Shown: positions 632 to 49,338 of the stretch, piece by piece
Numbering within the stretch: position 1 is the first letter of the stretch
How the letters are laid out: each line of letters starts with the position of its first letter
Assembly (NCBI GenBank): GCA_017620915.1
Contig: JAFZSK010000003.1
Coordinates: 1-52,566 of the forward strand
Reading direction: 5' to 3'
Length of the DNA: 52,566 nt
Source of the DNA: Clostridia bacterium
Lineage (GTDB): Bacteria > Bacillota > Clostridia > UBA1212 > UBA1255
The notes under the pieces: generated by a model
The model's database searches: none
What the model was told of the DNA's origin: nothing
The model's input: only the letters and a program-made list of their open reading frames with translations
Position numbers and translations under genes: made by a program

Positions 632-1285
632 TTACAAAATTCCGATGCCGCGGTTTAGAGCGTCAACATACCTCCGCTCCACATCTCCCGCGTCCAGCCG
701 CCCGGTCAGGTACCCCTTGATCAGCGTGTCGAAGTTCTGGATGTACGCGGAGATGGCGTTGCCGACTGCCTCGTCGGTGTGGTCCCGGTCGGTGCGCAGG
801 TGGATGCCCCGCACGAATTTGCCGTCGCCGACTTTGTAATCCGCCTCCTGTTCGCCGAAATATTTGGTGAGATAGTGGCCCTCCAGTTCCATCCAGAGTT
901 CCAGAAAGCGGCCGACCGATTCGATCAGCGCTCCGGATTGTGTCCGGAAGATGACGGTGAGCTCGCCGATAGCGCCGCGCGGGATCTTGTACAGTTCCAC
1001 TTCGTACTTGATCGTGGGCCGGTACTTGTATTCCAGGCTGCTCTTGAGGAGCATGGTGCTGTTGTTCTCGCCCACGAAGGGTACGATCACGCGTTCGCGG
1101 TTCATGGCATCTTCGATGTATTTAAAGATGTTGCCGATGCGCTTTTCGGGCGTGGTCATGGACAAATATTCGGCCAGGATCTGGTTCACGAGGTTGGACC
1201 GGTTCGTGCCCCGGAGGAACGCGAGGCGGTCAACTTCCTTCACCACATCATCCATCAGCATCAGACTGTATAAGCTTTTTTCCAT
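632..1285 (-). CDS. Ribbon-helix-helix domain protein upstream of clpB
   Basis: A 217-residue protein whose first 45 residues look like a CopG/Arc-type ribbon-helix-helix: a short beta stretch (KSLYSLMLMDDVVKEVDRLA) followed by helices including RGTNRSNLVNQILAEYLS. The rest (about 50-217) is a mixed alpha/beta region of unknown fold with no motif I recognise. The start at 1285 has GGGAGG eight bases upstream. It is the first gene of an apparent two-gene operon with clpB (15-base gap), driven by a sigma-A promoter at 1371-1400. The placement suggests, but does not prove, a DNA-binding protein that controls its own operon. It could instead be a structural nucleic-acid-binding protein. Function is not known to me. 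Confidence 0.75.
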   Translation of the reverse strand: MEKSLYSLMLMDDVVKEVDRLAFLRGTNRSNLVNQILAEYLSMTTPEKRIGNIFKYIEDAMNRERVIVPFVGENNSTMLLKSSLEYKYRPTIKYEVELYKIPRGAIGELTVIFRTQSGALIESVGRFLELWMELEGHYLTKYFGEQEADYKVGDGKFVRGIHLRTDRDHTDEAVGNAISAYIQNFDTLIKGYLTGRLDAGDVERRYVDALNRGIGIL

Positions 1286-1370: not shown

Positions 1371-1400
1371 ATTATACTCTTGCGCGTGCAAATTTGTCAA
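1371..1400 (-). promoter_or_regulatory. Sigma-A promoter for the RHH gene and clpB
   Basis: On the minus strand there is TTGACA (1395-1400), an 18-base spacer and TATAAT (1371-1376). The spacer contains TTGCACGCGCAA, an interrupted palindrome (TTGC/GCAA), which could be an operator lying between the -35 and -10 boxes. The untranslated leader is about 80 bases and includes a weak CCGGGC/GCCCGG hairpin. Confidence 0.8.
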
Positions 1401-1490
1401 GATATTTATATAAATTTTTGCGCGAGTTTTATGTTTTTGTCTTGGCCAGGCGAGCGAACGAAGCCCGAAGGACTCATTTCTCATTTTTGG

Positions 1491-1758
1491 AGCATGATTT
1501 CAGTAAAAATAAACAAAAACCCGGAGTAGCAGCGTTTTTTGTTTATTTATCATGGCTTTTATGCTCATTATCCGGTCGGATTTCCCCTTGAAAAGCCCTT
1601 TGATAAACAAAAACCTGACAGCGAGGGCATTTTTGTTTATCTCTTCCACTTCTTAAGGGCTTGAGAAGGCGCCCAACATAAACAAAAATCGATCAAGCAA
1701 GCGGTTTTTGTTTATTTTCTCGTTTTTCGAGTTGATCCGGGACACTCGAGAAGGCGCC
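1491..1758. repeat. Locus A: three inverted repeats with 16-base loops
   Basis: This non-coding stretch between clpB's promoter and the 1780 gene holds three hairpins with the same inner arms. The first has AAATAAACAAAAA at 1507-1519 and TTTTTGTTTATTT at 1536-1548. The second has GATAAACAAAAA at 1602-1613 and its complement at 1630-1641. The third has ATAAACAAAAA at 1678-1688 and its complement at 1705-1715. In every case the loop is exactly 16 bases, but loop sequences differ. Hairpin 2 has an extra outer pair, AAGCCCTT (1593-1600) with AAGGGCTT (1655-1662); hairpin 1 has CATGAT/ATCATG (1493-1498, 1549-1554). The motif GAGAAGGCGCC occurs at 1663-1673 (extended to CCCAA, directly before hairpin 3) and at 1748-1758. 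No open frame covers the region convincingly. Confidence 0.9.
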
Positions 1759-1779: not shown

Positions 1780-2607
1780 TCATGCGGCTATACTGTCCGG
1801 TATCAGGCCGCGTTCGGAAAGAATGGACATTACATTGTCCGTGTCCAGAGGAGATTCGGAAGTCTCGCAGGTCACGATGAGGTCGCCTCCGACGTCAACG
1901 CACATGGAACTATATGCGGCCAGTTTGGTGATCGCATTCGTAGCGTAATTCTCGTCATCGGCTTTTCCGAAATGCTCCCAGTAGATCTCCTTGCGCCTGC
2001 GCACATCCAGAATAGTAAAATCCGGATAAAGCTTTCGAAAGCCGGAGCGCAGCGGGCACTCATATTTGTATGGTATTCCTAAATGAAATAAGATGTTGGC
2101 AATTATCTGTTCAGACTTTGAGCGAACTTTTTCGCCGCGCAATGTTGAATGAAGTTTATTGAATTCTTTATAGTCATTGTACTCGTATGGCTCGCTCTGC
2201 CAGTTGCGGGCAAATTCCGCGTCCGTTTGGATGTAGTGCGTTGTCAGCGTCTGCAACTGCGGCTTGAGCCTGTCGACAATATCTTCCACTTTCGGCTTTG
2301 ACGAATGCAGTGATATTATGCGGCTGCAGCGGTCAATATCTTTCAACTCTCCTTCGGCCGCTTCCAGCATCATTTCAGCATACATCTTTTGCGCGAGTTT
2401 TTGGATCAGTTCCCCCTGCGCTCCTTCGGATGAGAGATAAGTTCCGTTCGTATCCAACTGAGATTTACGATAATAAAAGCGCGTTTTATTGTCAATGATT
2501 TTACAGTGCAGTTGACCCTCCGGCGCTTTTTTGATATCTCTGACAGCCTGCTTTTTGATCATATTCAGCAATTCTTTTCTTTTATCCAATTCTTCAACAT
2601 ATCCCAT
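1780..2607 (-). CDS. PD-(D/E)XK nuclease-like protein of unknown role
   Basis: A 275-residue soluble protein. The N-terminal half is helical (MGYVEELDKRKELLNMIKKQ onward) and the C-terminal half carries a restriction-endonuclease-like pattern: KVRSKSEQIIANILFHLGI (Glu), then YPDFTIL (Asp), then EIYWEHFGKADD near residues 180-235. The E, PDFT and E-H series is what I associate with PD-(D/E)XK domains that accompany helicases or stand alone in Bacillota, though the usual E-x-K is not clean here. I chose the ATG at 2607 because AAAGGGGA lies just upstream. A longer reading from 2676 would start inside a 22-bp palindrome and upstream of the predicted transcription start. No restriction or helicase partner is adjacent. 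Specific function unknown. Confidence 0.7.
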   Translation of the reverse strand: MGYVEELDKRKELLNMIKKQAVRDIKKAPEGQLHCKIIDNKTRFYYRKSQLDTNGTYLSSEGAQGELIQKLAQKMYAEMMLEAAEGELKDIDRCSRIISLHSSKPKVEDIVDRLKPQLQTLTTHYIQTDAEFARNWQSEPYEYNDYKEFNKLHSTLRGEKVRSKSEQIIANILFHLGIPYKYECPLRSGFRKLYPDFTILDVRRRKEIYWEHFGKADDENYATNAITKLAAYSSMCVDVGGDLIVTCETSESPLDTDNVMSILSERGLIPDSIAA

Positions 2608-2643
2608 CCAGTTATCCCCTTTCTGAGTAATCGTTATGCAGCG

Positions 2644-2694
2644 ATTATGCACGCATTCGATTCTCAGCGTCAACATATTTCCCGGGAAATATGT
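2644..2694 (-). promoter_or_regulatory. Promoter with a 22-bp perfect palindrome abutting the -35 box
   Basis: On the minus strand TTGACG (2668-2673), 18 bases and CATAAT (2644-2649) form a promoter for the nuclease-like gene. Directly upstream, sharing the first base of the -35, is a perfect 22-bp palindrome at 2673-2694: arms ACATATTT and AAATATGT around CCCGGG. The position suits a dimeric regulator. Confidence 0.65.
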
Positions 2695-46800: not shown

Positions 46801-47304
46801 TGAGTAAAGCTCTACTCCCAATTTCGTGGCGTGGTCTGGCTTCGCGACCGACGGCGCTCGGTCGTTTGGCAGGTGGATTGGGATAAAATGCTATTTTCTT
46901 GCTGTCTTATACTACACCAGGCGCCTTCTAAGTGAATCTGCATGCCGGTGCGTATTGATTACTTGGTTAAAACTATAATTTTATGATCGTTTTATACCAG
47001 ATTGGGCGCCTTCTCTCGATTATCGGCTCTATCGAATTTTGAGCGATTAGGATTAAATGGCTTTAGATTCATTTATTTATACCAAGAGCGTTCCGAAAGA
47101 TAGGATTGACTTAATCTAAGTCAATACTTTTATACCATTATTTGAGTATCGCGTTTTTGAAAATGAGCGAGAGCAAAGAAAAACTGGTATTAAACTACGC
47201 GAGTTCAAGCTGTTTATACCAAATATGGCTAAAAAAATGAAAATGCAGCGACCGTAATGAAAAAAACGGGCGGATATGCAATGCTGAACGAGCGCCGTCG
47301 GTCG
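46801..47304. repeat. Locus B, first part: AT-rich inverted repeats with 15-16-base loops
   Basis: This non-coding region lies upstream of the citrate synthase promoter. TTTATACCA occurs four times (46991, 47076, 47129, 47213). Three copies form right arms of hairpins. TTGGTTAAAAC (46963-46973) pairs with GTTTTATACCA (46989-46999) around a 15-base loop. AGGATTAAAT (47049-47058) pairs with ATTTATACCA (47075-47084) around 16 bases, 7 of 10 positions pairing. TGGTATTAAAC (47185-47195) pairs with GTTTATACCA (47212-47221) around 16 bases, with one bulge. The motif TTGGGCGCCTTCTC (47002-47015) is the exact complement of the locus A 14-mer; AGAAGGCGCC also occurs at 46920-46929. ATTGACTTA/TAAGTCAAT (47105-47125) is a separate stem. 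CGACCGACGGCGCTC (46845-46859) has an exact inverted copy at 47290-47304. Confidence 0.8.
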
Positions 47305-47343
47305 AACGAGAAAAACTGAGGCTGCAATTCCTTGTTTTGAAGA

Positions 47344-47486
47344 TTGTGGCCTCCCGAACGGAGGTCGAGCGGAGGCCGCAATTCAGCATTTTTAAAAATG
47401 CGGTCACCGCATCAAGAAAAAGCAGTGACCGCAATTCAGTTTTTTAAAAATTGCGGTCACCGCGTTAAGCCAAATAGTGACCGCAA
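47344..47486 (-). terminator. Locus B, second part: three tandem GC-rich hairpins with U-tracts
   Basis: Directly after the surface-protein stop come three hairpins at about 53-base intervals. B3 has TTGCGGTCAC (47451-47460) and GTGACCGCAA (47477-47486), 16-base loop. B2 has TGCGGTCAC (47399-47407) and GTGACCGCA (47425-47433), 17-base loop. B1 has TTGTGGCCTCC (47344-47354) and GGAGGCCGCAA (47371-47381), 16-base loop and one G-U pair. On the minus strand B2 and B3 run into TTTTT tracts. The separators are 20 bases (AATTCAG then a T-run and an A-run). B1 arms differ from B2/B3 but are changed on both sides, so pairing is preserved. They probably act as a triple, partly bidirectional terminator. 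Confidence 0.8.
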
Positions 47487-47496
47487 CTGCCGCTTA

Positions 47497-49338
47497 TCAG
47501 AAGGATCTCTTCTTCGCGAATACGACGGCGGCGCCCATTGCCAGCACCGCGAGGACCGCGAACATTGCCACAGCGGCATCGCCGGTCTGAGGCTGAACAG
47601 GAGTCTGGCCCGCATTGAGGTCAACATCCCTAAGTTCGCCCAGGTCCGCAAACGTGACCTGTACTCTGAGCGTCAGATTGTCTTCCAACTCGCCGTTTCT
47701 GAAGTAAGCAGCGCGGTTGTTCGGCCAGGCTTCCTGAGTCATGGGCAGAACCAGATAATGCAGCGCGGCCGCATCGGTAATCTGCTCGAAGACCATGAGG
47801 TACTGACCGGCGGCCAGCGGATCGTCGAATATCAGCTTGATGCCGCCGTTGCCGTTGGCAGCGATCTTGCAGTTCGTGCCCGCGATCTCGGAGCGCTCGC
47901 CTACGCCCGCGTCACCGGCAAGTTCGATCTCACCGGAAGCGACCGGCGTACCGGCTATGGAGGTGGCGTAGTCGGAATTGTACTTGTAGAGTTTCACACG
48001 GACAGTAGCAGCCGTCTGGCCGTCAGTGGCCGGGTTGCTGGCCCAGTAGTTGGGAACGCCGATCTCGGAGACCGGTGCGCTCGGATTGACTACGACGCCG
48101 ATCTCGCGGCCGGAATGGTCCGCCGGGTTCTCGCTGTCATTAGAAAGCCAGAAGGAGCCGTCCCAGATGATGCCGCCGTTGTCGCAGGTGAACGCTTCTT
48201 TAGTGCCGGTAGGCTCGCCGGGATCTTCGCCGGGATCATCGCTGGTCTCCGGAGCCGGAGCGTCCGCGAACTTCAGCGTGAGGAACGTGTTGCGCTCGTG
48301 GCCTTCTTCACTGTTCAGTTTGACCACGGTGCCGTCCTGGAGCTGCGCTACCACGCCGATCGTCTTGGTGCCGGTAAGCTGGCCGATCGGAACTTCAACG
48401 TAGAAACGCTGTACATATTCCGCGTTGCCCGCGCCGAAGATGCTTTCAACGCCGCCCTTGAGCGTGTCTTCATTGGCTCTGGTGTAGCCGGGAGCCAGCG
48501 TGATCTCGTCGTCGATCATGTAGCCGAAGCCGATGACCGGCTGCTTGAAATCGACCCAGCCGGTGTAGCCGACAGAAATGCCGCCGTATTTGGTGGCATC
48601 CATCACGCCGTTTTCCGCGAAGGTGTCGATCTTCGCTCTGGCGGAAGATTCCGCGTCGGAGCCGAAGCCGTTGGCGAAGTTCCAGAAAATGGCGTCCAGG
48701 CTCATGCCGAACTGTTCGGAACTCGCGTAGTCAATGACGTTGTTGGTGGGTTTGAATTCGATGTTGTCAACGTTGTTCATCTTGAACTCGAAGTTGGCGT
48801 TGGGGTTGCTCTGGCTGTTCAGTTTGACGATGGTGCCGTCCTGCAGCACAGCGACGACGCGGATCGTATACTTTCCGGCCGGGGCCAGCGGGATCCAGAC
48901 CAGGAATCTGCGGGCGTATTCGCCGCCGGCATTGCGGACCGCGTCCTCAGTCTCTTCAAAGAACTGGCCGTACGTGTCGATGACCGGTTCTTCGTCGTTG
49001 TACTGATAACCCATGGCCACGATAGGCTGATCGAATCCGATCCAGCCTCTGACGATAATTACGTCAAAACCGCTGGTATAAACGTACGCGGATCTGGGCA
49101 GACCGTCGGCACCCAGACCGTCCCACCACGCGTGGAGCGATTCGCCGCCCGCCGGAACATTGGCGCCAACAGCCGTACCGATCATGCTGTGAGCCCAGGC
49201 GCTCCATCTGATGTCGTCCAGATAGCCCGCCACCAGGCCCGAATCATCCACGTTGATGATGTTGGCCGCGCTCGCCGGAATAATAAACAGCGAAGCGATC
49301 AACGCCAGCGCGATGACAAATGCTAAAAGTTTCTTCAT
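47497..49338 (-). CDS. Surface protein with duplicated domain and sortase-type anchor
   Basis: A 613-residue exported protein. The signal peptide MKKLLAFVIALALIASLFIIPASA is followed by two homologous domains (about 28-200 and 205-375). Shared elements are the pattern GWIGFDQPIVAMGYQYNDEEP / GWVDFKQPVIGFGYMIDDE, ARRFLVWIPLAPAGKYTI / VQRFYVEVPIGQLTG, and VAVLQDGTIVKLNS / VAQLQDGTVVKLNS. An acidic Pro linker (ETSDDPGEDPGEPTG) leads to a third domain (about 390-575). The end is QPQTGDAAVAMFAVLAVLAMGAAVVFA plus KKRSF, a sortase-type motif (x-P-x-T-G), helix and basic tail. The role is unknown; adhesion or glycan binding is plausible. A strong promoter is at 49387-49415 and GGGAGG precedes the ATG. 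Confidence 0.85.
   Translation of the reverse strand: MKKLLAFVIALALIASLFIIPASAANIINVDDSGLVAGYLDDIRWSAWAHSMIGTAVGANVPAGGESLHAWWDGLGADGLPRSAYVYTSGFDVIIVRGWIGFDQPIVAMGYQYNDEEPVIDTYGQFFEETEDAVRNAGGEYARRFLVWIPLAPAGKYTIRVVAVLQDGTIVKLNSQSNPNANFEFKMNNVDNIEFKPTNNVIDYASSEQFGMSLDAIFWNFANGFGSDAESSARAKIDTFAENGVMDATKYGGISVGYTGWVDFKQPVIGFGYMIDDEITLAPGYTRANEDTLKGGVESIFGAGNAEYVQRFYVEVPIGQLTGTKTIGVVAQLQDGTVVKLNSEEGHERNTFLTLKFADAPAPETSDDPGEDPGEPTGTKEAFTCDNGGIIWDGSFWLSNDSENPADHSGREIGVVVNPSAPVSEIGVPNYWASNPATDGQTAATVRVKLYKYNSDYATSIAGTPVASGEIELAGDAGVGERSEIAGTNCKIAANGNGGIKLIFDDPLAAGQYLMVFEQITDAAALHYLVLPMTQEAWPNNRAAYFRNGELEDNLTLRVQVTFADLGELRDVDLNAGQTPVQPQTGDAAVAMFAVLAVLAMGAAVVFAKKRSF

Follow-up and report, generated by a model that had tools for sequence, protein, structure and literature searches.

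Palindromes spaced at integral helical turns in a dispersed intergenic repeat family of an uncultured gut bacterium

The DNA analysed in this study (the window, 52,566 nucleotides) harbours an intergenic array of three palindromes between two genes of the minus strand (Table 1; the genes were called with a simple codon script). Identical inner arms and 16-base loops had been described for these palindromes from the sequence alone, and the description was exact: each has the form ATAAACAAAAA-N16-TTTTTGTTTAT (11-N16-11), with loops that are unrelated to one another. The motif GAGAAGGCGCC, which had been seen to recur beside the palindromes, was present in two copies. The array is located approximately 110 bp upstream of the perfect promoter of gene 632-1285; an ortholog of this gene, with a similar promoter, was found in two other genomes (G002 and G005), with no array upstream. 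The 5' end of the window copy was placed at approximately 1475-1488, and terminal inverted repeats (TIRs) were missing. No intrinsic terminator (GC-rich stem, short loop, T run) was detected at 1475-1758, and this candidate function was rejected, in agreement with the earlier view that a simple terminator is unlikely here.

The sequence-only reading also proposed that further outer arms made two-tier structures of some of the hairpins. The outer arms AAGCCCTT/AAGGGCTT do exist in the window, but such arms were not conserved in the family and are regarded as incidental. Across 68 palindromes, the longest complementarity between flanks had a mean of 4.72 nt, compared with 5.05 nt for shuffled partners, and a complementarity of 8 was reached by the window copy only. 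A second element of the same superfamily was detected in the window, with a TIR at 46808-46826, AGAAGGCGCC at 46920-46929 and 47005-47014 (minus strand), and arms of the GGTATAAA type. At 47320-47490, beside the end of gene 47500-49338 (minus strand), palindromes TTGCGGTCAC-N16-GTGACCGCAA and TGCGGTCAC-N17-GTGACCGCA adjoin a GGAGGCCGCAATT hairpin; these palindromes resemble tandem terminators, yet have a loop of 16-17 bases.

Table 1. Coordinates of the features of the window array, its flanks and the second element
Feature	Position	Strand	Remarks
Flanking gene	632-1285	-	array upstream of gene; no Pfam match at 1e-5
Promoter of gene 632-1285	1371-1400	-	TTGACA-18-TATAAT; similar promoter in relatives without the array
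CATTTCTCATTTTT	1475-1488	+	remnant of conserved CATTTTCATTTTTC block, which precedes the first palindrome in other copies
Palindrome 1	1509-1546		ATAAACAAAAA-N16-TTTTTGTTTAT; perfect arms reach 1507-1548
ATGCTCATTATCC	1561-1573	+	GCTCATTTTCC spacer motif; between palindromes 1 and 2
Palindrome 2	1603-1640		arms as palindrome 1, N16; centre-to-centre 94 bp (9 turns) from palindrome 1
Family motif GAGAAGGCGCC, copy 1	1663-1673	+	
Palindrome 3	1678-1715		arms as palindromes 1 and 2, N16; centre 75 bp (7 turns) from palindrome 2
Family motif GAGAAGGCGCC, copy 2	1748-1758	+	85 bp past copy 1; 3' end of recognisable element
Flanking gene	1780-2676	-	array downstream of gene; no Pfam match at 1e-5
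Second superfamily element	46808-47250	-	far end approximate

The three window palindromes belong to a large intergenic repeat family of an uncultured gut bacterium. Copies were counted in the window's own genome (G000; 2.57 Mb, 121 contigs) and in a sister species, the closest relative compared (G003). The arm-N14..18-arm pattern occurred at 20 places in G000, all of them N16, and the reversed control pattern at none, so that the count is well above chance. The motif GAGAAGGCGCC was present 72 times in G000 and 64 times in G003, and 1-5 times in five other genomes of the genus, which is not above control counts. Such a genome scan had been forecast to reveal numerous intergenic copies that differ in their arms and lie near GAGAAGGCGCC, and this was the outcome; most arrays were located through this motif, and the repeats coincide with breaks in the assemblies. 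When species genomes were scanned with the exact ATAAACAAAAA pattern, most hits were unrelated single palindromes in other taxa, and this search was set aside. A second kind of array was noticed in G000, with GC-rich palindromes CGTAGGCCGAAA-N16-TTTCGGCCTACG (L260 15810-16040, contig 11), and in G004, with TTTGTGGCCGTA-type palindromes (L235 6230-6470 and L238 1-150); this kind repeats every 53-54 bp, or about five turns.

The places with GAGAAGGCGCC that were read in G000 and G003 presented one architecture with many arm sequences. Complete elements are intergenic, about 430-540 bp in length, with terminal inverted repeats GGCTCTRCTCCCGAWWTCG and two to five palindromes of 36-42 bp each. The parts follow in the order CATTTTC block, palindrome, CTCGCTCATTTT spacer, palindrome, GAGAAGGMGCC, palindrome, GAGAAGGCGCC and tail GAAAATGAGCGAGCGCCGTCGG. 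As in MITEs, the complete elements of 428-536 bp have TIRs, here of 19 bp; the window copy is truncated. An 8-bp target duplication (ACTTGGAA) was present at one complete element (L065 3734-4161), and none was evident at the others. Other genomes of the order also harbour these terminal repeats, on elements with different palindromes: AGACATACCAAA-N16 in G001 and G004, CGTCATAGAGAA-N16 in G006 and, in G026, which is from another taxonomic family, a single palindrome of 39 bp. At the same place, G001 harbours two 84-bp units and G004 one.

The palindromes of one element usually agree in their arms, with the exception of L191 and L194 of G003, which mix two arm types; the occurrence of CGTCTAACAAAA and TAAACAAAA arms in these single arrays suggests module exchange between elements. 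Between elements the arms differ (ATAAACAAAAA, GTCATAGCAAA, AACATAGCAAA, GTCTAGCAAA, GTCTATAGAAA, CGTCTAACAAAA, GTGGGACAAAA, TAAGACAA, TTCTTAAAAAT, AGACATACCAAA and others), with at least nine arm families in one genus, and total palindrome length clusters at 36-42 bp across the arm families. At an orthologous gene whose product has a lipoprotein-like start, the arms were CGTCTAACAAAA in G003 and GTCTATAGAAA-like in G000. For the ATAAACAAAAA (ATAAAC) arm, with up to 3 arm mismatches allowed, the loop was N16 in 35 copies and N15 in 4, most other loop counts being shifted registers of the same copies. Loops were also N16 in 25/25 cases for GTCATAGCAAA (GTCATAGC family) and in 15/16 for CGTCTAACAAAA (CGTCTAAC family), and GTCTAGC arms had loops of 17-18 when counted with 10-bp arms. 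The suggestion that the fixed 16-base loop reflects a geometric constraint is strengthened by this comparison, as loop length is held while the arms change completely. The accompanying statement that the loops have no common sequence is correct for the ATAAAC arms; in other arm families, an A/T tract recurs at the loop centre. Loops are therefore not entirely free to vary, being constrained in length and, in several families, in their central A/T tract. Within the TAAGACAA-armed family the loops are conserved, with a shared motif like CTCAAACGAG in either orientation (L259 18560-18720, L066 5975-6155 and L198 2250-2425). The AT fraction (mean of six arm families) fell from 0.92 at the dyad to 0.35 at 4.5 bp and rose to 0.95-0.99 at 8.5-10.5 bp. 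AAA/TTT phasing was 0.40 in array regions, compared with 0.24 in other intergenic DNA (P=6e-5).

The new observation in this family is that neighbouring palindromes are located at integral helical turns, with a 10.55-bp period. Centre-to-centre distances between neighbours (78 pairs, 44 loci) were 53, 63, 73-75, 82-86, 94-95, 105, 116-117, 137 and 147-148 bp. The best period had a vector strength (R) of 0.90 and a bootstrap-by-locus 95% CI of 10.50-10.60, and the phase was near 0, which indicates whole turns, in classes of 5, 6, 7, 8, 9, 10, 11, 13 and 14 turns. When the 84-bp class, which is the dominant one, was excluded and one value was kept per arm family and class (n=17), V was 0.91 and 0/100000 random sets were as high, a P value to be read with care because copies related to one another are not independent. 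Reduction to eight distinct spacing classes, of which one was off phase, gave a P of 0.002. Most of the spacings come from loci chosen by the motif GAGAAGGCGCC; for stretches fetched mostly without reference to the repeat, V was 0.84 (n=16, few independent arrays).

The period of A-form RNA is 11 bp, which differs from that of B-DNA. The spacing period equals that of B-DNA and therefore points to duplex DNA. The sequence-only reading had offered either a protein dimer or a folded strand; the first is favoured by the phased spacing, and the second fared worse. A function of the palindromes as hairpins of RNA or single-strand DNA is unlikely, whether in a structured transcript or as a REP-like transposition substrate, with the loop length fixed by hairpin recognition. 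The complementary arms, the fixed loop length and the tendency of left and right variants to agree in one palindrome are all consistent with hairpins, and the folding energies are moderate (family medians -5.8 to -12.9 kcal/mol). However, whole B-DNA turns between hairpins would not be expected, and 46 of the 73 arm mismatches are not wobble-compatible on either strand; the strand-specific wobble bias was uninformative as a test for RNA because many mismatches are at arm edges. Rfam searches of the window and of eight further loci returned no match to the elements: two tRNAs only were found in the window at the gathering threshold, and a tRNA plus one weak match far below cut-off in the eight loci at E<=1. 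Nor is the sole Y1 transposase domain (Y1_Tnp) of G000 located beside an array, and none was found in G003 (70% complete).

Of the intergenic gaps with elements, 24 were divergent, 22 codirectional and 2 convergent, and the flanking genes had an array on their upstream side in 79 cases and on their downstream side in 31. A strong promoter preference was rejected, the upstream bias being only modest (~60% is expected from intergenic regions without the motif); the elements may have some effect on nearby promoters. The neighbouring genes include those for release factor 3, TrmO, threonine synthase, lipoate ligase, Rrf2 and a class-V aminotransferase. No functional theme was found among the neighbours, and no regulator theme in the 30 flanking genes scanned. 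An array of G000 (L013) was absent at the same place in G003 (L020), a difference for which insertion or deletion is possible. The family resembles MITEs in being high in copy number, short, non-coding and variably present between relatives. Because the copies are scattered beside unrelated genes, have inverted-repeat ends and are absent from relatives, the data suggest a MITE-like, BOX-like mobile repeat, which would move by transposition. IS-like sequences (ends with GTGTAAATTT) interrupt or adjoin palindromes in several elements (L008/L009, L010, L019 and L050); the palindromes look like preferred IS targets, an impression that may be biased by contig ends of G000 at repeats. The Y1_Tnp ORF of G000 (323 aa; L272, contig 76, 13234-13563) has no array, motif or TIR in its 3-kb locus.

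A purely parasitic MITE without a bound protein, in which palindromes are homogenised by template switching or gene conversion and unit number changes via slippage, is quite improbable. This would fit the lineage-specific expansion, with the motif at 72 and 64 copies in two species and at background level in the other five genomes of the genus, as well as the flanking genes without a functional theme and the 84-bp unit difference, but it leaves unexplained the helix-phased spacing over unrelated arm families, the fixed N16 and the AT tracts. The ends of Tn7-like or Mu-like elements hold multiple binding sites, and the palindromes could likewise be bound by the transposase of the element itself or by an accessory protein, with arms that co-evolve with the protein. 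Several phased sites per element, inside elements with common terminal repeats, are in line with this. Nevertheless, it is very unlikely, as the palindromes are central and not terminal, their arms differ while the terminal repeats are shared, and no partner transposase was found in a search for DDE_Tnp_ISL3 domains, none of which was present in G000 or G003. Least probable of all is intrinsically curved DNA, with phased A-tracts bending promoter-upstream DNA without a sequence-specific protein: the A/T tracts are in helical phase within and between palindromes and upstream flanks outnumber downstream ones, but exact, symmetric, family-specific 11-bp arms would not be needed and the upstream bias is modest.

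Compared by layout alone, the elements share a modular organisation with the BOX repeats of Streptococcus pneumoniae and S. suis. BOX repeats are composite, dispersed and lineage-specific, contain a variable number of internal tandem modules, are thought to be parasitic and can influence nearby genes (PMC3049150). Unlike in BOX, the internal units here contain palindromes of 36-42 bp, with arms specific to the family, loops of fixed length and spacing in helical phase. REP/BIME sequences with TnpA-REP (RAYT) are likewise short, high-copy intergenic palindromes that are sometimes clustered (PMC3733652, PMC8266576). CGTC REPs, which have been reported without transposase association, have 8-9 bp stems, 4-5 base loops and an unpaired tag (PMC3733652), whereas the arms here are about 11 bp and the loops 16, with no constant tag and no associated Y1 transposase, and the palindromes are embedded in larger elements with terminal inverted repeats. 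No unpaired GTAG/CGTC end tag was found; the arm ends vary by family, and CGTC, where present, is part of the paired arm. A REP/RAYT assignment was rejected because of the loop size and the absence of an associated Y1 gene. The PurR PurBoxes of Bacillus subtilis are inverted 14-bp boxes with a 16- or 17-bp spacer, recognised in duplex DNA by a dimeric protein (PMC8789054). The inverted half-sites with a 16-17 bp gap are similar, but PurBoxes involve one protein, one consensus, a dozen or so sites and a metabolic theme, as opposed to many arm families, arrays of two to five and no theme. The lambda, ara, gal and Lac repressors use in-phase operators at integer helical turns, which place the proteins on one face (PMC2553838). 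The sites here are also whole turns apart; in-phase operators are, however, dedicated regulatory sites, and these are dispersed repeats with changing half-sites. Nothing fitting was found in the literature on MITEs with palindromes in Ruminococcus, helix-phased iterons or MITEs with protein sites.

On balance, the window array is probably a truncated copy of a MITE-like intergenic repeat carrying two to five putative protein-binding palindromes, recognised by a dimeric protein on duplex DNA. Each 36-42 bp palindrome would most likely serve as a site of the operator type in duplex DNA, with the family-specific arms of about 11 bp as the two half-sites of the putative dimer. The A/T tracts, located at the dyad and roughly one turn away on both sides, may provide a common bendable or minor-groove face, and putative dimers on neighbouring palindromes could sit side by side on one face of the DNA, cooperatively. 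Dyad sites at integral helical turns, as in operator arrays, are what was found, and because of this phased spacing a cooperative protein on duplex DNA is favoured over RNA or single-strand hairpins.

Some findings count against this protein-binding interpretation. To recognise the nine or more arm families, a single protein would have to be unusually tolerant, or several related ones would be needed. Symmetric arm variants were observed in 26/36 cases in the GTCTA families (10.2 expected; partly from relatedness), and such variation would also be expected from hairpin pairing or self-templated correction. In addition, the target duplication was present at one complete element only, no ISL3 transposase was found in the two genomes searched, and the window copy has no TIRs. 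We advance more tentatively, as a doubtful possibility, that the family represents a novel kind of mobile nucleoprotein array: a non-autonomous transposable element carrying phased dimer sites as its cargo. The half-site sequence of such an array would be replaced as a whole, with the geometry (palindrome of 36-42 bp, spacer of 16 bp, AT tracts at each turn and integral-turn spacing) conserved, which implies co-evolving paralogous binding proteins.

Intergenic repeats of bacteria are commonly interpreted as hairpins formed by RNA or single-strand DNA. The clear B-DNA period over many unrelated arms indicates that this dispersed repeat family seems selected for the alignment of protein on duplex DNA. 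If this is true, the elements would seed ready-made cooperative binding arrays beside unrelated genes, and their changing half-sites would form a natural series in which to study how a DNA-binding protein changes along with its sites.
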